In this document: piece after piece, positions 3,020 to 47,668 of the stretch | How the letters are laid out: each line of letters begins with the position of its first letter | How positions within the stretch are numbered: position 1 is the first letter of the stretch | NCBI GenBank assembly: GCA_025602905.1 | Contig: JAHLKI010000001.1 | Location: 2,232,001 to 2,296,000, forward strand | DNA: 64,000 nucleotides | Source: Phlyctochytrium arcticum | Lineage: Eukaryota > Chytridiomycota > Chytridiomycetes > Chytridiales > Chytridiaceae | Direction of reading: 5' to 3' | Made by a program: the position numbers and the translations under genes | The notes under the pieces: generated by a model | What the model saw: the letters and a program-made list of their open reading frames with translations, nothing else | Told to the model about the DNA's origin: nothing | The model's database searches: none

Positions 3020-6000
3020 CTACATGCAGACCCCACAACCCGCTGTGAGGGACGTTGAGACCACGTTGCAGGAGGTTAATTGGCTACAGAAGCCATTCGA
3101 GTCTGGAATTGGTCCTGTCAAACCAGTATTGCCTCCAAGATTCCTGCAAATATTTGCTGTTAGTTCTAAAAAGCGCCTGAACACCAGTTGGAACTCACAA
3201 ATCTGTCAAAACAGAAAGATTTTGCAAACTGGTGGGCAGGGCTCCAGTAAGGCCAACGGTATTGAGCGTTAAGGAATTTAAAGATGCATGCCATACGGAA
3301 ACACTTGTGTCGCCGATCCATGTTGGGAATGAACCGAATGGTGGAGCAGGTGGAGTAGTGAAGAACAGCGAGCTGTAAAGATAATACATTTGCGTTAGTG
3401 TCTATCCTCCCGGTGAGAAACATGGCCTGCTGCCTGTTACTTACAATGTAGTCAATGGGACTGGCGCGAGGTTTTGTAAATTGCTTGGAGTTATCGCCGC
3501 ATCTCCTATAATGCTAATAGAAATGATAAGTGGCGGAGCATGACCGGCAAACTTTGACAAAATACATACATTGAACGAATCGTGGTGGAGGGCACTGCAG
3601 GAAACGCTACGTCCCAATTGCCCTGCAACTTTCTGTAACAAACGACAAAGACAATGTAAGACCAACATGCTCAATTGGACCCAACCGGCGAAAAAACTTA
3701 CACATTTTTGAGATGCGGTAATGACCACAAACTCGGATCGATTACTAGGCCGGAAGGAGCTCCCAGTGTAGAGACTTCCCTTTAGATTAAGCCAATTCAG
3801 TACCTGAGCACTATCCCGCCCGACATGAATAAGCCACTTACAGGTATTCCAGATAAACCAACTTTCCCATGTAGGACGGGTATCCGCCGGGAAGGTCCGA
3901 GGCCAGCGACCTGGAATACAACACGCGTTAATATTTCGAATTTTCGAAAATGGAATGATTAGTCAGGCGGCTTAGGTGGGAGACACTCACATTTCTGTGA
4001 CCTTGCCATCTACGCAGGTCAGCGTCGCTAAGCCGTCCTGCCAGTCGGCGCAAACATTCAACGAACTCATCCAGCCCGACCACCCTTCGTTGGTGTCAAG
4101 GGAAAATTGACCAAGTAGGCATACTTGCATGACATCGGACGTTAGGATCCCGACATCAGCCACGCAATCCGCACATGAAGGGCCAACCGCGCTTAGGAAC
4201 GCGGTAGGATTCAGACTTGAAGCCATTTGCTGGGAGCAGCTTTCGCGGACAGCAATTTCTGCTGGATCAAGAGGGTCATTGATGTTCTTGCCGTTGCCTG
4301 CAAACGACCGGCGTAATACAGGGGTAGAAGCGGGCGCTGCTGTACTGGAGGTCGCGCTCGCCCTTGTTAATTCCGTGGTCGATGGAACTAGTGTGGTTGT
4401 CGTCGTCTCAGTTGTTGTCGTGGATACGACTGTCGTTGTCGAATCATGCGTCGATGAAGGTAAATCTGCAGTCGTTGTCGATTCAGCGGTCGTTAAAGAT
4501 CCTAAAGAAGTCGTTGACGAATCTGGTACTGTCGTTGTTGTTGTAGTAGTATCTGAAGTGGTAGTTTGAACGATGGCCAACGTTGTCGTAGATTCGGTTG
4601 TTGATGGGGCTAGACTAGTGGTGGTAGATTCCGTTGTTGGAGGTGCTGTGGTGGTGGGTGATTCAGTTGTTGTTGAGGCTACTATAGTGGTGGTAGATTC
4701 GGTTGTGATTGAAGGTAATGTAGTGGTGGTGGGTTCACTTGTCGTTGATGCACTTGTTGATGAAGCTACTATAGTGGTGGTAGATTCGCTTGTGCTTGGA
4801 GCTAATGTAGTGGTGGTGGGTTCAGTCGTCACTGATGCACTTGTTGATGAAGCTACTGTAGTGGTGCTAATTTCACTTGTCGTCGATTGAGTTCTTGATG
4901 GAGTTATTGTACTTGTGGAAGCTTCTGTTATTGACAGAGCTACTGTACTGGTGGTAGGTTCACTTGTGGAGCTTGACGTTGAGTCCGGTACTGATGTGGT
5001 CGACGCGTCGGTCGTGATGGTAGAACTCTCTGTGGTCTGGATAAGTGTACTACTACTCTGTACAAAGCTAGAAGTGGAATCGCTACTCGTAGCATGCGTT
5101 GTACTAGAATCTACTCCAGTACTAGATATCGTACTCGTTGAAGCATAAGTGGTTGTGCTACTTGACACTAGGAGAGCCATGGTGGTGGTTTCGCTGTGTG
5201 TGAATGAGCTGGTCCCTTCAGAGGAAAAGGTAGGTGCTGAGGCCGTGGTACTGGTCGCGTCGGTTGACGTTGTAGTGGAAATCAAACCCATGGTACTCGA
5301 CCCGCTCGAAGCCGTTAACGGTGCCGATGTGATCGTGGCTTCGCTCGACGTTACCGACGCCGTTGAATCCGTGGCAAGAGTACTGCTGGTGGTAGAAAGG
5401 GTTGCTGAAAGGGATAATGCTCCGTCCGATGAACTGATACGCATTGTACTACTGGAAATACCGGTCAACATAGTGTTTGTAACTGACGCGGTTGCACTAG
5501 ACGCAGTCAAAATCACTGCGTATTGACCATCAACTGTAGTAGTAGAACTGTACGCAGTGGACGTTCCCGTACCACTGGAACTGTATGATGCTGATTCCGT
5601 GCCACTGGCACTGCTGGCGGATGAAGCAGTGCTTGAGCCATGCCCTACATAGGCAGGAGCGGAAGTGGAAGAAGCACTCTCGGTGGTGCTTCCATGAGTG
5701 CTTGATGTTGCTGCGGACAATATCGCCGTTGCTGATGATGATGATGATGCTATTGTATTTGTCGTTCCGGCATTCTGATATGCGGAGGTTGTGATTACAG
5801 TAGATACAGATGACACACTTTGGGTTGGGGAGCTGGTAATAGATCCCGAAGATGAAACACTATAAGTAGGGGTGCTAGAGATTAAAATCTCCGTACTTGT
5901 GCCCGGCGACCCCGCATGAGAGCTGGATGACGATGGAGAGGGCACTGTACTTGTCGCAATGACAAGATTTGAAATGGTGGTGTATACCGAGGTTGTAGTA

Positions 6001-8614
6001 GGAGATGCCGACAGTCGGTTTGTGGTCGTGGTCGTACCTAGAGAACTATCAAAACCGGCTCCTAGGGTACTCCGGCTAGTGGACCCGATATTCGAAATTG
6101 TGCTTGGAGCAGCATGCGGTTCCTGTGATGAGCTGCCCAAGGGAATTGTGGACGTGATGCTCGCCACAAATGATGGAGCAGTTGTTAATGTATGACCTCT
6201 ACTGGTAGTGGTAGATAGTGAAGACCCCGGAGTCCTTGTGGAATTTGGGAATTTTAAATCTGCTAGTTTGGCCAGGGCGCTTTTGGTTGTGATTGAATCT
6301 TTGACCACCGCGACATTGATGACTGTAAGGTTTGTCACAAACAACAAAAGGAATATGGCCAGGCACAGCGATCCGCAGATTGTACCAAGGCACGATTTGG
6401 GCGAGCACCTGCGACCATGGGAGCGGTCCGTGGCGCAGGCGCGGGGCTTCGAAGGATCCTTGGGCTTGCTTTTCCAAGAAAGCCAAGGAAAAAACCGAAA
6501 TCGCTTGCGTGTGCCCATCAGGTCGTACACTTCCACTGTTGCAGTCAAGTCTTCCTTACTGGCCTTGCCCACCCAGTTGCTCCCTTTCCCAGTCTTTATA
6601 TTTGCCGACTGACTTGAAGGGGACTTGGTGGTATGTTGTGTCTTCTCCTCCAACTCGTCAATGATGATTGTGGGGACACCGGTGTCGTGATTTATCGGAT
6701 TGGTAAGAATGTTACCTTTCTTTAGTTCTACGCTCTTATTATTCGGATCACTGATATCTAAAGGTGTGGGACCCCAGTCCACAACGAATGAGGGTTGTCC
6801 AGTCGGTAGTGCAGAGAAGGGTACCTTCCCGATTCCTTCATCATCCCACGGAGCAGATTGAATGGAGAGTGCTTGATTCTGTTCCCGGAAATATGGATTC
6901 ATGTCTCCCCGTGTGTTGGTGGACCTTACAACCTCCATATTATTTGATGATGCATTAGTGTAAGCTTGTGTCGAAGAGATCATAGTTCGGGAATGATTTG
7001 CGCTAGTAATCTCCATGCTTTGAATTGGGACGTTGCTGTCCGCTTGTAACCGGGCATATGTAGGTACATTGGCAGGTGGCATCATTTCTCTTAACCCCGT
7101 AACATGCGTGTCGGGACCAGTCCTGTTCAGCAACTCTAAAGAACCCATATAATCTTGACCGAGAAGCGTCCCTACCCCACTGGGCCTACTCTCCACTTTT
7201 GTACTTTCTCGCTCGGTTACTCGTGAACCATATGCCGGCTCATTTGTAGCGGCGAATAATTGTGGGTTGCTGCCCTCCGCAAGAGCGCCGGATGACCCCC
7301 AAGAATCTTGAGCACGCAAGGCTTTATGTCGAATCTGGCGTTCGACCAGCTCGTTCACCAAACGCTCGTCGTTCTGCTGTAAAGAGGCCAGACTTGACTG
7401 ACTGTAAGTAGGATTACGCGTCGAATCTCTGACTGTCTGTTTGCTTAGCGCGGGTGATGCTGATAATGCTTGAGGAGAGAACCAACCTAGTTCGTCAAGC
7501 CCGCGCTGCTCTTTTCGCGATGCAAGCATTCCTTGTCGTTGCATCATCTCCAGCACCGCTGCATCACAGACAGAATGGTTGGCGAGGCTAGCAGATGCTT
7601 GGTTGAGGCTCTCCATTTCCCTTGCCTGTGGTACTAGAGAAGATACGCCCTCTCGGAGGACCATTGTCCCATAATCTGCATCTCGTGAATGGACAGATGT
7701 CATGGAGCTGTCGAGGATCATGGCCGCGATACCATGGGCATCATCGTGATGCTGCGCCGTACTGGCCTTCGGCTGCGTTAGGCTATCACGCCCAGTCGAC
7801 CCGTACGTTGCAACTGCAGGTAGATCGCGATGAATCATCGTCTCGGTAGCGCCAGCAAATAAATCATCCTCCACCACTGGGTGGGGATCCGCGAAGATGT
7901 TTAGTGATGTGTTGCTAGTACTGATAATTTGCGAGCGTACTGCTCGCACCCGCTGCTCCGCTGATACTCGTCCAGTCCTTGGCTGGGAAGGGTTGAAGCC
8001 ATAAGGGTCCAGCAGCGCTACCGTTGCATCAAAAGGTTCTCGGCGCAGCGTTGACCTGAGATCCTTATCATCTCCGGTGACCGTTTGACGCTCACCCCCC
8101 AACCTATCGTCGTTAAGGTAGTATGGGTTGGCATTCTCGCTCTCAATAACTCTATGCTCGTGATGTGGCTGCACTCCCTCCGAATGAGCTGCCACCGTAA
8201 CCGTCCCGATCTGAGTGAGGCTTTGGTGGGGGTTTTCCAATCCAGACTGGAACACATCATCATCATCCCTTCTATCGCGTTTGGAGGCAAATTCCAAAGT
8301 CCCGGCCGGGGGATCGCCCAAAGTTTGGACAGGCAACCCGTGCGCTTTTGACAACCGTTGCTCGCTGGGCTGCTGCGCCCTGGTAAAGCGAGTTTTTGTT
8401 TCTGAATGTTCCTCGGTCGGACCCTTCCAGGCCGTTGGTTCCAGATTGTCTCCCCTGGTGTGGCGGGGCTTCCAGGGTGGCTCAGAGACTCGAGGTTCTA
8501 CGGCTGGCCGCGGGACTGGCACTACGAACCGTGGATACTTTAGAAACTTGAAGGCTTACAGAAGGATTGGTAATAAATAACCTTTGTTCTCGACGTTCTG
8601 ACCGATGGTCTCAT
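3020..8614 (-). CDS. giant membrane protein: cytoplasmic tail, TM, mucin-like stalk, C-terminal LRRs
   Basis: The main exon is open from 8522 to about 3988 (1511 codons). Its first ~690 residues are polar and probably cytosolic. Near residues 700-735 there is a basic flank and then a hydrophobic span (GSLCLAIFLLLFVTNLTVI), a signal-anchor. Then come about 650 residues almost entirely of Ser and Thr with Pro (O-glycosylated, wall-spanning stalk) and a Cys-containing segment (PSCADCVADVG, NVCADWQ). Six introns follow, the junctions I could resolve being phase 2, and the small exons encode plant-type leucine-rich repeats (LVIDPSLWSLPHLKNV, LTLNTVGLTGALPTSLQNL, LNLGGNTGLTGPIP), ending in a Cys-rich tail (CSQLTSC, GCGVCM) and TAG at 3020. 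The inferred orientation is N-in/C-out. The main exon has no ATG; I suggest exon 1 at 8614 with a 38-nt intron, which is uncertain. A wall-sensing or adhesion receptor role is inference only. Confidence 0.7.
4574..4900 (-). repeat. degenerate Thr/Ser minisatellite coding for the stalk
   Basis: Within the stalk-coding exon, units encoding variants of STTTIVASSTSASTTSEP and TTTLAPSTSE recur several times with diverged third positions. The repeats are in frame and look like old internal duplications, typical of mucin-like surface proteins whose stalk length varies between strains. Confidence 0.6.
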
Positions 8615-31850: not shown

Positions 31851-33668
31851 TCAACGCGGGATGTTGGGATCGTTGCCCTCAATAATGGGACCTCCCTGAT
31901 TTCCTGCAGGAAGATACATGCGCTCCTCAATTATAGGCTGTAACGGTAATGCAGTGGGTCCAAGATCTGCGGGTGTTTGTGGCGTATCGGCGTTTTCCTC
32001 GGGTAAGCTCAGACCCATAAACGACGCCAGAAATTCAGGTGGACAAGATCCGCGACGGAGACCCATAAACGATGCGAGAAATTCGGGAGGGCAAGAGCCT
32101 CGCCGGGCGGTTCCCCAATTAGATCCACCATCGCCAAGGTAGTGATTGGGTAGATGATGTCGCCCTGGCATTCCCGTGGCAGGAGGAAGGGTTGGAGTAA
32201 AGTACTGGTCCGACATGGGACTATCCATGTTTTGGTGTACTCCATAAAGGGGTGCAGTATAGGCACCTCCGGCCATAAAGTTGGTGCCAGTACGGTCCGG
32301 AATGGTGATCGACAGATTAGGCTGTGGAAGCCGGCCGCGATTGCGGGCAGATGTGGGATCCATGACCGGGGTCTGGTTTTCATAGAAAGGGTAAGGTGAA
32401 GGATGCGTTTGCGACGGGCTCCCTCCGGGTACGGGCATGGATGGATAGGGTGGAAGTGTTTCGTCGCCAAAGTATGGGTCCTGCATTTGGTTGGGGTATG
32501 TGGAAAGATGATGCTGTTGTTGTTGTTGTTGTTGAATTTGAGTATGCTGCTGTTGCTCTCGTTGATCAGATTGAGGAGAATGTTGCTGCTGCGGGTACAG
32601 ATATGGGTATGACATCATTCGCATTTGACCGTCCATTGGGGTTTCCTCAGAACGAGTCCTTGCGGATATTGGAGCAGCCGGTATATACGACATCCGATTT
32701 ACCTGGGTACGGTATTGCTCGGGGAAGGAGATGGCGCGGTTACGAGTATACTGGGGGTACGCTCGACGGCCAGGTGTCCCATCTGTCAATAGTTGCTGGT
32801 GTTGTTGTTGGTGTTCTGGTTGGTGATGTGATGGAAGTGGTGCGGATAGCTCGGAGGCATCCTCGGATCCTGGAAACCCATACCCATAGGTTGCTGCAGA
32901 AGCGTCCTCTTGGGAGAGATCTTTTCGAATGACAAGGTTGGGGATGTCGCCGCCAGCGGCAACACCAGCGTCTTCGTTGTCGCTCAGATTGACAGACATG
33001 GTAAGTCCTCCCACAACGACCGGGTTGGATGAGGGGTTGGGATAGGATGTTTGATTGGATCGACCGGGTGTCAGTGGGCCCGACAAATGTTCTGGTTCGT
33101 CGTACGGTTGATTGATCTGTGGGAGGTATGAGGAACTGTTGCTATTGCCGCTGCTATGGGTGTTGATACATGAGTTGTTATCGCCAAGGTGTGGGTTGGC
33201 TGCAGCGGGGTTGCGAGTTGGCGAGGTGCTTTTTGACTCGGCATTGGACGCACCGGGAGCATTTTTCCGCAAGCTGGCCTTTTCCTTGGCCCGCCGATTC
33301 TGGAACCAAATCTGGACGCCTCGAGGGGTCATATTGAGCTGACGAGCAAGTACTTGGCGCGTTTCGGCATTGGGCTTTGTGTTGGTGCGAAAGTTTCGCT
33401 CCAGGATCTCCAACTGAGATTTGGTTGTCTTTCGGCGAGTCTTGTGGAAGAAGGGATTGTAGGCCTATTTGGGGATAGCATGTCGTTCTTAGCAAGACAT
33501 CCCGACAAAGATCCTGACAAGTGCAAGACTTACGTGGACATGAGGGAACTGGTGATAATCGCTGTAGGCGGGAAGGTAATAGTGTTCCATGTATTGGGGG
33601 GGAATCGGTTGACCTTCGGGGGCCAGCATCATCCCCTCGGTGCCGTCGGTTGGGGGTAGTCCGTCCAT
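31851..33668 (-). CDS. homeodomain transcription factor
   Basis: Exons 33668-33534 and 33464-31851 give about 583 residues from the ATG of MDGLPPTDGTEGMMLAP. The homeodomain crosses the intron region at residues ~46-105: FHKTRRKTTKSQLEILERNF, then RQVLARQLNMTPRGVQIWFQ and NRRAKEK. Helix 3 reads VQIWFQNRRAKEK, with Gln50 and Asn51 in the canonical places; there is no TALE three-residue insertion. The rest is low complexity: Asn/Ser runs, a Gln/His tract (about 32500-32600), Pro-rich segments, and a 16-residue duplication LRRGSCPPEFLASFMG near the C-terminus. It belongs to the typical (non-TALE) fungal homeobox group; the target genes are unknown. The long gene-poor region upstream may hold an extended promoter. 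Confidence 0.88.
32010..32105 (-). repeat. 48-bp tandem duplication inside the homeodomain gene
   Basis: Two adjacent 48-bp units (32058-32105 and 32010-32057) encode the same 16 residues LRRGSCPPEFLASFMG, but the DNA differs at several third positions. The peptide has been kept while the codons drifted, so it is probably a functional motif used twice. Confidence 0.8.
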
Positions 33669-35932: not shown

Positions 35933-35972
35933 CTAGCGGTTGGCGCGCCTCGCTTCGCAGCGCGCATCGACT
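35933..35972 (-). other. Helitron 3' terminus: hairpin plus CTAG
   Basis: On the minus strand, GCGCGC ... GCGCGCC arms flank a short TGCGAAGCGAG-like centre, then AACCG and the terminal CTAG, followed by T. This is the termination signal of rolling-circle transposition. Confidence 0.75.
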
Positions 35973-37466
35973 TTATGTGTGAGAACGATGGCGAACGCAC
36001 ATAATACATATAGATGTTCCACATATATGCATCACAATTTTCATCCTTTATGTTATTTTGCGAGTAGATCTCTTTGATTTGGTCATTGCATTTCCCTCAA
36101 CTTTAAGATGGAAGTTATTCTCATCTTAGCCATACCCACACATTGTGTTGTATAGTAGCAGGGGGACGTTGAATGCATGAACCCCAAACATGCAGGATAT
36201 TAACTTTTGGAACTATACAGCTTCATGTGCTGAGAATTGCCAACATGGTAACAGTAAGAATCGCCAACATTTAAGGAAGAACTCAGATGATTTCGGAAAA
36301 GACCACATTCTGGACTCCATCGCCCGCATTTTCCGATCCAGTCACAACTTTAATTTGGTCTGGGTGACGACCTCGCGAAAGAGCCACATACAGCTGACCA
36401 TGGGTGAAGACCTGAGTGCCCAAATATACGCCAACATGGTTGAAAGACTGTCCCTGGGACTTGTTGATGGTCATGGCAAATGCGCCAGTGACCGGGAACT
36501 GTCGCCGATACAAAGTAAACGGCATCCGTGAATCACTGCACCGATGTGTGATTCGCGGGATAAGAACCACATTGCCAGTGAAGGGCCCTTCAATGATTTG
36601 GCAGCGTAGAAGCCGTTGCGATACCACCTCAAGTAGTCGCAAGCGAGTTCCGTTTGACAAACCACGCGAAGGGTTGAGGTTCCTGAGGAGCATGACAAAC
36701 TGACCAGGTTTGAGCTCAAGCTTGTGGGGAGGAAGTCCCGAAAGCTGCAGAGTATTGAGGAACTCTACAGGATAAGTAGAAGCGTCCTCTTGATCAACGT
36801 AGTCAGCGCTCAAGCACTCGCGGAAGTCACCAGGCAGACGTTCTACCACCCTACGATTGATCATCTGAGCGTCGTCATTCTTGACAGCGAGGATCACACG
36901 ATCTTCAAAGTCAGCGCCGTCCGCAAAGATGTCATCGATCAAACCATCCAGGTTGTTCCCTGTAGCAACCATGGATTCCTCAATGTTCACACGCGCACCG
37001 TTTCTGCCCTCACCAACATCAAGTAGAAACTGCTGGAAGTCTGGCCGTGACTGCAGACGCATATTGATGGTCAAATTCATCGTTGTAACGTGACGCCAAA
37101 GGGGTGACTTTTTGAAACAGCGCCCAACTGTTGCCGACCGACCACCTTGTAGAACAACTGGCAAAATTTGCCTGAAGTCACCTCCAAAGAGCATCACTTT
37201 GCCACCAAATGGCTTGTTGACATCAAGTGCATCCCGAATAGTACGGTCAACCGCTTCAATCGCATATCGAGAAGCCATGGGTGCCTCGTCCCAGATGATC
37301 AAGTCAACCTCCCGAAGGGTGTTGGCAATTGCAGATCGAGGGCCGAAGTGACATGTACTTGTCTCGTTAAGCTCCAACGGAATAGCGAGAGTTGAATGTG
37401 CCGTTCTTCCATCATGAAGAAGACACGCAGCAATACCACTGCTGGCCATTGCCAAACACCGGAAGC

Positions 37467-37471
37467 CCTCT
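37467..37471 (+). repeat. target-site duplication CCTCT, left copy
   Basis: Identical to 37809-37813 and directly abutting the TG end of the LTR. Confidence 0.85.
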
Positions 37472-37808
37472 TGTAGTAAACTTTGTGTACTTTGGGCTCG
37501 TGAAGTAATACAAGTTACTGTTGTGTTTTGTTTATGATTGTGTGTGTGTGGAATTCGACGTTGAGAGTTTTTCTCTCTCCGTCCGGTGTCCTTTCTTCCT
37601 TTATTATGCTCTCTCGGAGCGGTAGCACACTCATTGGCCTAGCCATAATGGGTGTGGCTACTACTGAGAGCAGCGGGGATTCGTGCGGCTCGCCGGAGGC
37701 TTAGCTACGCGATCCTCACGTGCTATGGACGGAGCCTACCGCACTCATCACTATGACAACAAGGACATTAACTGCTTACACAATACAGTTCACACTAATT
37801 CCATTACA
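37472..37808. mobile_element. solo LTR (337 bp) inside the Helitron helicase gene
   Basis: Begins TGTAGTAAAC and ends CCATTACA on the plus strand, i.e. TG...CA ends with an imperfect short inverted repeat TGTA/TACA. It is flanked on both sides by the 5-bp duplication CCTCT (37467-37471 and 37809-37813). There is no coding sequence inside. A TATA-like ATAATAAAGG on the minus strand suggests it is oriented like the Helitron gene. The ends and the 5-bp duplication are those of an LTR retrotransposon after recombination between its two LTRs; Ty3-like or Ty1-like cannot be told apart. Confidence 0.85.
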
Positions 37809-37813
37809 CCTCT
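37809..37813 (+). repeat. target-site duplication CCTCT, right copy
   Basis: Identical to 37467-37471 and directly abutting the CA end of the LTR. Removing the LTR and one copy restores an unbroken reading frame. Confidence 0.85.
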
Positions 37814-40800
37814 GAACGCATCGCGCGCAACAGCGTATTGTAGACGTACGTCTTGCCGGTCCCGCCGGGCCCATCCAAGAAGAAGACTCGCTCCTGAGAG
37901 GTTGCACCTTGACGGACAGAGTGCGCCACCCTCTCGAATACCGATCTCTGATCGACATTCAAAGTGTCAATGAGCTGAGCGATATCGGTGTCTTGGTCGT
38001 TTTGGTTTAAATCTTCTTGAGCCCCATCGTCGTTCGGATCGAACCCTTCGGAGTAGAACTCTTCTAGGTTAATCCAAGTCGACATGCGCATATTGAACGG
38101 CTCCAAAAGCCGGTCCAAGTCTGCAATGACGCGGGATTGCCGTTGACCTTCCGACATGTCCCTCTGATCCTCGGCCATTGCTTCATAATGCTTATGAAAC
38201 AGCCTTGCAACGTCTGCTGGTTCACTGAAGGCCACCATAGTGGCAAACAGCTTGCGGATCTGTGATGGCTTGGAGGACACAGTTGCTTCCTCCAGACACG
38301 TATCATACTCAGTGTCATCCTCAAGGAGCCCTCGTGCAATCGCTGCCTCTTTGAACGTTTCATACAAAACGCCGTCGTGCGTTCGAAGATCCTCATAAGA
38401 GGTCGGCCCCCGTACATGACTCAACAGCATACGCAAGTGAAAACGGTCGCTCCCAGGAGGAGCCATGGTCATGCGAGCCACGACCTTCCATGCCCTCTTC
38501 CGACGTGTCCAAGTTTTTGGACCTTGGTTCCACCGATAGTGCTCGGGGAACTCACAATAAGTAAGACCTTCACCCGCTTGCTGCTGGAGCTCTTGGTTTG
38601 TACGGAAGAATTCGGTGAGCATAGTGCGCTCATTGTTCTCTACGGCAGCCTCAGGGGCAGCCGCATCAAATGTGACATACTGCTGACCAGGCAGATGCAC
38701 TGGAAGCCGAACGATATTGTGGCTAATGCTGTTCGTTTCAAAGCTGAGCAAGCGCCAGCAGGCTTCCTGGGCGGAAATGTATCGCCCTTCTAGATATTGA
38801 CTGATTTCGTCAATATCTTCACCCGCCTCGAGGACAGCTCGGTCCTGTCCTTTGTAAATGTACTTGTGCAAGTACTTTACTGAGCTCACCGAGTTGCAGA
38901 TTTCAACGTTGATATGGCAGTCATACTTCCCGGTCAAGAACGGGTTGTATGGAACGATCCACTCATTGCCAAGCTCCACGACTGTACCTCGCACACGTTT
39001 TTGGATTCGAGGACCACCACCTCGTCGCCGGTACGTAATCAAGCCATTGTCAGAGACAGTCGTACTTTCAGCGAGAGCCTTTGGGAACTTTTTGGTGCAT
39101 GCACCGTCGGCCATGCAGACATTTTGCGGATTGTCGCGTCCGCGTGACTTAACGGAGGCGTACAGTCGGGGCTGAGTTTCGGGATCTGGGATCTCTGCAC
39201 ATACCATGCTGTCATAATGCTCCTCGGTCGGCTTTGATTCCAACCAAACCAAAAGGTGTGTGTGAGGAAGGCCACGCTTTTGGAACTCAACCGTGTAACA
39301 ATAAGCCTGCACTTTGCCAAAGACACTCTTTTTCACAATGTCGTCCAACATGTTTTGGAACTTCATGTGAAAGACGCGAACAACAATGTCGGGACGGTCC
39401 TGTGCCTTCTGGTGAGGAAGCAACAGGCGGGTGATTTCGGGCCACTTCGGGTTGCAGGTCATCGTAATGAACAGATCCGGCTTGCCAAACCTGCGAACCA
39501 AAGCCATAGAATCTTGGAACCTTTGCTGCATGTACCGAGGTGACCCGATTGTTGTTGCAGGAAGAACAATGCGTCGTCCAATGGTACGGGTATCACCATT
39601 GTCAAGAGCGTCAACAATCCCTTGGTAACATTCAGCTCGAAGTTGCTTCAGGTTGTGACGAATGAACTGCAAGTTTTGGGCTTCAACTCGCAGGTACTGA
39701 TCAACAATGTATTGCTGAAACAGCTTGCCCCCCATGTGCAGGACGTTGGGTGAAGAACGGCACTGCATGCGGTATTGTACAAATGCTTTCAAAGTCACAC
39801 CGGTAGCCTCTTTGAATGGGATGCACCAACCCTGGTTACCTACAACCGTGCCAAGAAAGCCGTATCAGAAAATCCGCACTTTTCAAGCTCAGCAACATGA
39901 ACGCAAGTTTAAATCATACCTTGCGGGAAGAACAATGGATATGATAGGGCATCGTACATGGGATGACATTCATTGATCCGCTTCAAGCCACCACCACGCT
40001 TGCGAAGTACGATGTCCCGGTTTGTAACATGCTCGTCATTGAGCCATACAGCAGCGACCTCCGGAGCAGCAGCCGCATTATAACGACGGGGATGTTCACC
40101 AGCTGGTACAGCGGACCCGTTGATACTAAGAACAATGTTAGTAGTACTCTGAGCCATTTCTCGCGCTGCAACAAACTGTTGAACCAAGGCGTTCTCAGTC
40201 TGCATCGCGTCGTGAATAGTTGCCACCGCCATAGGCCGGAGATTGGAGAAAACCTCCAAACGTCGAGAGCTTTGAGCCTCCGCGTCCAAAAAGTAAATTT
40301 GAGAAAACTTGGGCAGTTCCCCGTCTTCGGCCTCCAATCCATCCCCAATCCGGTGATACAGCTCACCGTTGACCCGGAAAGTGTAGATGCCATCCCGGTC
40401 GCTCGCCAAGTTCAAGTCAAGATTGCTGGACATGCTGGTAAACGCAAAGGCTTGGTTGTATTTTCGGATGTGCGCGAGGAACTCTTTAGAGTCGTTCGTG
40501 GCCCCTGAAAACAACGGCTGTAAAGCTGCATGTGGAGAAACATGGCCTACATCATCACCTTTGGTTTTGCCGTTATGGCAGCAGATTGAAGCCTTCTCGG
40601 CCTTCCACCTGAATGCGCCGCAGCTTCTGCACTCGCAATTCATATCGCCCGCATCAAACAGAGTTGCACTGTCCCGAAACTGCTCAATAGAGCAAATCGC
40701 AACAGCCATAGTAAAGGTCTTTGTGTGTGTGTATTTATTGTTTTGTGATAAAGAGTAGGGGAGCGGAGGGAGATCTGCCTTATATACCGCGTGTCCGAAG

Positions 40801-40871
40801 GCTGGCCCTGTCCGGACATTAATTGATGACGGCAGCCAGCCAAGCCACCTGATGAGTCATGTCGCGACCAA

Positions 40872-40889
40872 CATTTTTTAGTAGTAGGA
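40872..40889 (-). other. Helitron 5' terminus (TC end)
   Basis: Minus-strand sequence TCCTACTACTAAAAAATG preceded by A, matching the conserved 5' end form TC(T/C)...TACTACTAAAA of Helitrons. Confidence 0.75.
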
Positions 40890-46379: not shown

Positions 46380-47668
46380 TTATGGCTGTGCTGCGCTCGG
46401 TCCTGTTTCGGCTTCAGCGGCAGAAGGAAAAAACACCGATAGATCTAGCGGTGCATCTACATTGAATTGCTCCTGTGTGGTACGTTCCGGGATAGGCAAC
46501 TCCAGGTGATGTGCTGGTAATGGTTTGCTGAAGAAATATGGATCTAGCAGTGCCTGGTAGAAATTTGTAAATGATGTAAACCATTTGTGAGACAATAAAC
46601 TGGTGGTACCTCTTTTGCCGGTGTCCGGCTTTTGCTGGAATAAACCAGGAACCGCTTGAGGAGGTTAACAGCTTCTTGACACGCATCCGGACAAACTTGT
46701 TCCAATGAGACGCCGGGCATGTTTGGGAACTGGATCTTGTTATAATCCGGGAGCGATTCCATGTCCTGAGTGCGTGATGCATCGTTTAGAATTGAGGCAA
46801 ACTTAAGAAAGAAATAACGTGGGACTCTTACCGGCCACGACTCTTTGGTCGGAGTCCCAAGAATGCTGAGTACACAATATAGCTGATCAATGTCATTCTG
46901 GCCAGGAAATAGTGGGGAATGGTTAAGAAGCTCCCCAAAAATACAGCCCACGGCCCACAAATCCACCCCCACATCATACATTCGAGCTCCATACAGTAGT
47001 TCTGGTGCACGGTACCAGCGAGTAGCCACTTGATGAGAATAAGGTCTCTGCACTTCTGATCCTTGTGCAGGCTGAGGTCGGTGGACCCGCGCCAAACCAA
47101 AGTCCGCCAATTTCAAAACCCCAGTTGGACTGATGAGCAGATTAGCGGGCTTCAGATCCCGATGCATAATGTTATTCTCGTGGCAATAAGATAACCCCTT
47201 GAGGAGCATAAGCATGTAAGCCTTGACTTGCGAGGAAGTCAGGGGTGCAGGCGTGTTCCGTAATATATGGGACAGATCTGACAGCATGAATTCAAAGACA
47301 AGCACGAAGGAAGGACCGGATGGGTGGACAGACAATAGCTTTACGACCTGGAGGCATCAAAAGATATGCACATATCCTTTCAACAACAAGATCCAACTAG
47401 AATGAGTACCGGCAAACCTACATTTTGATGATCGATGGCCTGAAGCGCCTTGATTTCTCGCAAAATTGTATTAGGGATTCCGTCCTCGAGGCGGCGAAGA
47501 GGAACTTTTTTCAAAGCAACAACCTCCCCGGTTTCTATTGATTTGGCCTTTAGCACCACGCCATGAGCCCCTTCTCCAATCTGTTTTAAGTAACCTGTTA
47601 AAATCGAGTGACGGAAAGGGGAATGATCTTGGTATACGCGCCTTGCCAAGCACTCTGAACTTTTCCAT
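46380..47668 (-). CDS. CDK20: cyclin-dependent kinase CDK20/CCRK
   Basis: Ser/Thr kinase of the CDK family, cell-cycle-related kinase subgroup, which in animals and algae controls cilium length and assembly. The start is MEKFRVLG at 47668. The glycine loop reads IGEGAHGVVLKAK, the catalytic Lys sits in VVALKKVPLRRLEDG, and the alpha-C Glu lies in LREIKALQAIDHQN. FVLVFEFMLSDLSHIL is the hinge typical of CCRK. The catalytic loop is HRDLKPANLLI and the magnesium loop DFGLA, followed by VATRWYRAPELLYGARMYDV. Near the end ELPDYNKIQFPNM and YFFSKPLPAHHLELPIPERT are CDK20-specific. Introns at 47637-47595 and several later ones. Retention in a fungus fits a flagellated lineage. Confidence 0.88.

Follow-up and report, generated by a model that had tools for sequence, protein, structure and literature searches.

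The helicase exon of a Helitron in Phlyctochytrium arcticum, a chytrid of the Chytridiomycota, is split by a solo LTR, and the question raised by this locus is whether the insertion created an intron that can be removed exactly, without damage to the protein, or merely ended the life of the gene. We analyzed it within a stretch of 64,000 nucleotides of contig JAHLKI010000001.1 (positions 2,232,001 to 2,296,000, forward strand), which is referred to here as the window and to which all coordinates without a contig handle belong. The first-pass annotation of the locus favoured the intron and kept the dead gene as an alternative.

The replicase/helicase frame is split at 37467-37813 by a 337-bp element. 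A base-exact check located this element, with TG...CA ends, at 37472-37808 on the minus strand, and direct CCTCT duplications (AGAGG on the gene strand) bracket it at 37467-37471 and 37809-37813. The first of these copies lies downstream of the LTR with respect to the gene and carries the candidate acceptor; the second lies upstream and, on the gene strand, ends with the G that opens the candidate GT donor. Between the two duplications there are 337 bp and no internal region, which identifies the element as a solo LTR, and its assignment to Ty3/gypsy follows from the exact ends, the 5-bp duplications and the copies elsewhere in the genome. On the minus strand the junction reads TCA GAG GTG TAA, where the in-frame TAA stop at 37804-37806 comes from the LTR and is the second codon past the junction. 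An AATAAA is present on the sense strand of the LTR, where ATAATAAA (37600-37607, minus) is a putative poly(A)- or TATA-like sequence. Promoter and poly(A) signals are probably present in the LTR, and transcripts may be ended by its ATAATAAA.

Matches to the LTR were found in at least 13 places of the genome. At C3:1224424-1230513 a Ty3/gypsy coding region is flanked by paired LTRs and bears the target duplication ATTTG, and this copy is the full-length retrotransposon for which the first-pass annotation had proposed a search. Its two LTRs stand 5.75 kb apart, differ from each other at 2 columns and are 96% identical to the window LTR. Pfam analysis of the element, read in pieces, detected the RVT_1, RT_RNaseH, Integrase_H2C2, Ty3_capsid and zf-CCHC domains, with the rve domain only below the cut-off; gag, reverse transcriptase, RNase H and integrase thus follow each other in the gypsy order between paired LTRs of the same sequence. 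On the LTR sense strand, the 5' LTR is directly followed by TGGTAGCACCACC, which we take to be a primer-binding-like start, and the 3' LTR is preceded by GAGGGGGG, presumably a polypurine-like tract. The positions of these two sequences show that the sense strand of the LTR is the minus strand of the window, and hence that the LTR runs in the direction of the helicase gene. The window LTR is unlike every other copy compared at 2 of its 337 positions and is therefore young. A solo LTR normally originates by recombination between both LTRs of a full-length insertion, so the gene was probably split at first by about 6 kb, and a single harmless insertion is not its likely history.

Two further observations concern the gypsy family. 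The C3 copy (C3:1222924-1232013 with its surroundings) lies within a Ty1/copia element: RVT_2 was detected on one side of it, and the open frame on the opposite side, which has no Pfam match, is copia-like by eye. The LTR places on C63 (L002) and C41 (L003) have an identical left flank of 20 bases and begin alike internally, as if a segment had been duplicated or a single insertion assembled twice.

The interrupted element is defined as a Helitron by its termini as well as by its gene. Helitrons have a 5' TC and a 3' CTRR end, lie between A and T, and carry a palindrome near the 3' end. The element at 35933-40889 (minus) begins with TCCTACTACT after a host A and ends with a GCGCGC palindrome and CTAG, of the CTRR type, before a host T; the same ends recur in many copies with unrelated flanks. 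The stability of the 3' hairpin GCGCGC...GCGCGC is not above that of shuffled sequences (z -0.61). Exon 1 of the gene, an open frame with its ATG at 40709, occupies 39920-40709 and is followed by a native 80-nt intron at 39840-39919 (CAAG/GTATGA...TTGTAG/G, the slash marking the cut), which was deduced from the frame (join G-N-Q); the gene finder instead placed the acceptor of this intron at 39810. The coding part upstream of the insert (37809-39839) contains the Rep domain (Helitron_like_N, PF14214, 9.5e-67) and the start of the PIF1 domain with its Walker A motif (PF05970, 1.6e-08, profile positions 2-49), and the part downstream (36283-37466), an open frame to the stop codon, encodes the remainder of the PIF1 helicase (PF05970, 9.7e-52, profile positions 45-217). 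Both the Rep (HUH) and the PIF1-type helicase domains are thus present, and the initial identification of a Helitron helicase gene is borne out by these profiles. The frame of the window copy is open from ATG to stop except for the insert and an in-frame 18-nt deletion, while several other copies have frameshifts or stops. In one of the other copies (C3:713587-714552, L020/L036) the order is rearranged: a helicase piece is repeated out of order, with query positions 32-156 following 1-850.

Searches of the genome for copies of the Helitron gave at least 31 and at least 35 matches, of which 20 loci each were read, and 14 other Helitron places had both flanks of the insertion site. None of these 14 carries the LTR, so the segment did not occur in the copies whose possession of it had been named beforehand as evidence against a new intron. 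In 13 the site is empty, that is, the flanks abut and a single copy of the target is found (AGAGG in 10, TGAGG in 2 and AGAAG in 1); these are the uninterrupted copies that the first annotation had suggested looking for. The fourteenth place (L015) has a local deletion at the site. Two other arrangements were considered and rejected: an insert common to other Helitron copies, by the same 14 places, and other LTR places lying inside Helitrons, by the lack of Helitron sequence at 12 of 12 LTR places within loci of 501-3339 bases. Since the LTR is absent from the 14 Helitron places and the Helitron from the 12 LTR loci, the insertion is private to the window copy among the places read, and among them we saw no sign of later movement of the LTR-bearing Helitron copy. 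The coordinates and bases first given for the element, its CCTCT duplications and the split frame proved exact, and its identification as a solo LTR is sustained by the duplicated target, the gypsy-paired LTRs and the empty sites in paralogues.

These data suggest the following history. A Helitron of a young multicopy family would have landed at the locus; a Ty3/gypsy retrotransposon would then have entered its helicase exon at AGAGG in the sense direction, with duplication of 5 bp, as the empty sites indicate; and LTR-LTR recombination, the usual route to solo LTRs, would have removed the interior and left one LTR. With the LTR stop two codons past the junction, the most that such a gene could yield is a Rep protein truncated shortly behind Walker A.

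In the competing explanation, a 342-nt spliceosomal intron containing the LTR is excised exactly; the duplicated target would supply the G of the donor and both bases of the acceptor AG, and the helicase message would stay in frame. The geometry on which it draws is real. Cuts at GAG/GTGTAA (intron from 37809) and ACAAGAG/G (to 37468) take out 342 nt and leave TCA GAG GGC, the sequence of natural uninterrupted copies, so the claim that exact removal would restore the pre-insertion sequence stands; the candidate intron GTGTAA...ACAAGAG (37468-37809, minus) has GT and AG ends, and the frames on both sides of the insert are open. Splicing itself is predicted only, and disfavoured. The argument, made at first, that 342 is a multiple of 3 carries no evidential weight, because exact removal of an insert together with one copy of its duplication restores the frame at any length. 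Where an LTR starts with TG and its target reads NNAGG, a frame-restoring GT/AG pair arises as a by-product, and such a geometry is not rare. Among 3977 pentamers of this coding sequence, 61 (1.5%) read NNAGG on the gene strand, as needed for such a geometry with a 5-bp duplication, and 15 read NYAGG, which gives the favoured pyrimidine-AG acceptor; the window site is of the weaker GAG kind. At a frequency of 1.5%, the GT/AG geometry by itself argues only weakly for an intron. The general lesson is that LTR insertion with a 5-bp NNAGG duplication produces an exact-removal GT/AG pair.

The candidate splice sites were compared with introns of the same window. The supported set comprises nine GT-AG introns of the AP-2 mu and CDK20 genes (by protein homology), one GT-AG intron of the Helitron (by frame) and one GC-AG intron of CDK20, and a small matrix was built from the 10 GT-AG introns. 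Ab initio gene finding without splice preference yielded only 11-19 introns and no stable consensus; the run was therefore repeated with a generic prior, which gave 26 introns with a consensus that leans on the prior. The second matrix, also from a small set, uses 25 of these 26, the Helitron intron being left out as its acceptor was judged misplaced. The donor GAG/GTGTAA falls within the range of the ab initio donors: 8 of the 25 do not score above it, and it is the best GT within the insert. On the 10-intron matrix, where 1 of 10 scores as low, it is borderline, and the two comparisons agree with the original description of this donor as modest.

The acceptor is poor. ACAAGAG/G has no pyrimidine tract and is preceded by purine-rich sequence. 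All 11 supported introns end in CAG or TAG and none in GAG. On the 10-intron matrix none of the 10 scores as low as this GAG, which 34% of all window AGs equal or surpass; by the ab initio matrix 3 of 25 are as low and 38% of window AGs are at least as good, which is background-like. An apparent precedent for a GAG acceptor, the CDK20 intron read as GT...GAG, was rejected. The first intron of this gene (47581-47641, minus) is a 61-nt GC-AG intron, AAG/GCGCGT...AACAG/ATT, and joining the exons with GC...CAG gives exactly the species' protein P0241 (343 of 343 residues); hence this intron offers no precedent for GAG. The length of the candidate also lies outside the range found here. The 10 supported GT-AG introns measure 54-80 nt, and the 26 ab initio introns have 5th and 95th percentiles of 48 and 151 nt and a maximum of 273 nt, so that 342 nt is 4-6 times the length of the supported introns and exceeds the longest ab initio one.

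If the donor at 37809 is used at all, it may be joined to another acceptor, either an internal one such as the TAG at 37751 or the AAG at 37470-37472 (minus), and the resulting messages would be frame-broken. The 37751 acceptor would define a 59-nt intron, which fits the intron size of this genome, and its ab initio score, stronger than that of GAG, is at least as high as those of 18 of the 25 training introns; on the 10-intron matrix, in contrast, it is low (1 of 10 as low). The AAG lies 2 nt upstream of the frame-restoring GAG, and its use would leave 2 extra nucleotides and shift the frame. Here too the matrices disagree: the 10-intron matrix prefers AAG (-1.11 versus -2.77 for GAG), whereas on the ab initio matrix GAG is better (-1.8 versus -2.94) and AAG scores below all 25. 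The LTR may also end the transcript first. We consider such inexact splicing unlikely.

A second lesion bears on what exact splicing could achieve. At the junction 39143-39144 (minus), comparison with sister copies revealed a private in-frame deletion of 18 nt, which removes HMVHGPC and with it the HGPCG motif. The deleted segment is present in all 12 near-identical places that span the site (18 nt in 11 of them and 23 in one). Ten of these places have HGPCG as the motif, and the other two have HGPRG and HCPCG; in the copy on C46, which is 86% identical, it reads HAPCG. Among the best 120 of 3358 relatives, 114 have HGPCG or HGPHG, and 117 have HGPC with G, S or D as the next residue. Although it leaves the frame intact, the deletion removes a motif kept by nearly all relatives, so that even exact splicing would still not give the family's usual protein. 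A working product of the window copy is unlikely even with splicing, and two lesions, the LTR and this separate deletion, have probably left the copy dead.

Private substitutions provide a further comparison. Those of the other copies, 253 nonsynonymous and 104 synonymous, are in the neutral ratio (expected nonsynonymous fraction 0.73), as expected of copies dead on arrival. For the window copy, a looser filter counted 10 synonymous and 8 nonsynonymous substitutions (P 0.005 against an assumed 3:1). A stricter filter leaves out the C46 copy, any alignment below 93% identity and any column that is within 6 of a gap, is covered by fewer than 5 copies or shows more than 2 bases. It counted 7 and 8, respectively, which gives P 0.08 against the computed neutral fraction and, in a Fisher comparison with the other copies, P 0.16. 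The purifying selection suggested by the first count was thus rejected as not significant after stricter filtering. The synonymous lean hints that much of the private history of the window copy may have passed under selection, as would be expected both of a late insertion and of continued function.

Taken as a whole, the evidence favours a recent nested insertion of the ordinary kind, in which a Ty3/gypsy element since reduced to a solo LTR entered a Helitron copy that is dead; to this reading we assign a probability of roughly 0.85. That the insertion is nested follows from the 13 empty sites, the absence of the LTR from all 14 places, the full-length gypsy relative and the 5-bp duplications. 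That the copy is dead is suggested by an acceptor below all 10 supported ones, the better AAG on that matrix, the length of 342 nt, the loss of HGPCG and the neutral ratio in sister copies; we count against it the otherwise open frame, the donor within the ab initio range, the advantage of GAG over AAG on the ab initio matrix together with its 3 of 25, and the synonymous lean. Useful levels of splicing at the frame-restoring GT/AG pair are unlikely. Exact removal as an intron, despite its geometry, in-range donor and flanking open frames, is very improbable: beside the acceptor, the upstream AAG, the length and the deletion, it has against it a sense LTR with AATAAA, a putative two-step origin via a full-length element and the absence of the LTR from the 14 other Helitron places read. 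Still less credence is due to the full course of events in which insertion and LTR-LTR recombination turned a solo LTR into an intron that is spliced exactly from the gene of another transposon, the target duplication contributing the acceptor and one donor base, in a copy keeping some coding function. The original view that one insertion made a harmless intron thus gives way, on the poor acceptor, the frame-shifting AG 2 nt upstream, a length 4-6 times that of supported introns, the sense AATAAA, the probable two-step path through about 6 kb and the private deletion; its own alternative, a dead gene, is the better reading by the splice signals and the second lesion.

The preferred reading, a nested insertion in a dead copy, places the locus among well-known systems. 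It shares with nested Ty3/gypsy solo LTRs the TG...CA ends, the 5-bp duplication, an LTR that matches those of a full-length gypsy copy and empty paralogue sites, and differs from them only in the chance splice-site geometry. As a Helitron, a RepHel rolling-circle transposon, it has the same A/TC...CTAG/T ends, 3' GC-rich palindrome, and Helitron_like_N and PIF1 domains as others, from which the window copy is distinguished by the interruption and the lack of HGPCG.

Precedents for the exact intron come from other systems. According to Gozashti et al. (2022, PMC9860276), introners form families whose member introns resemble one another; some have target duplications and inverted repeats as DNA transposons do, and others lack them. 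Their splice sites derive wholly or partly from the target duplication, and mRNA length is unchanged. This supports the possibility of an exact intron, but the resemblance is one of working only: here a single LTR insertion is concerned and the candidate splicing is predicted from sequence alone. A review (PMC3443670) presents a proposal in which transposons insert at AGGT protosplice sites and the duplicated AG/G becomes the acceptor and part of the donor. The locus departs from that scheme, for its target reads AGAGG instead of AGGT, the LTR contributes the T of the donor, and the acceptor is GAG. The LTR retrotransposon ONSEN, in an Arabidopsis exon, is spliced as an intron with RNA evidence, as described in PMC12112155, and likewise speaks for the possibility; both cases involve LTR elements in exons, but ONSEN is there a full-length element, and the locus studied here has a solo LTR known from the DNA only. 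No report of this P. arcticum locus was found in the literature searched. If splicing did occur, the locus would represent a fungal case in which an LTR gave rise to an intron by a two-step route, and 13 sister sites would document the sequence before insertion; even so, an intron from LTR insertion would be of a kind already known. As it stands, the locus is a clean young nested insertion.

Several features of neighbouring genes in the window were also recorded. For the AP-2 mu gene, the best relatives among the matches listed are those of chytrids such as Thoreauomyces (79%); the AP-2 mu of P. arcticum itself does not appear among the 120 proteins listed. The homeodomain gene at 31851-33464 (minus) contains an in-frame tandem repeat, RRGSCPPEFLASFMGL, in two copies near the C-terminus. 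Finally, the 1522-aa open frame at 3987-8555 (minus) has a hydrophobic segment followed by a long stretch rich in Ser and Thr and, by eye, appears mucin- or wall-protein-like.
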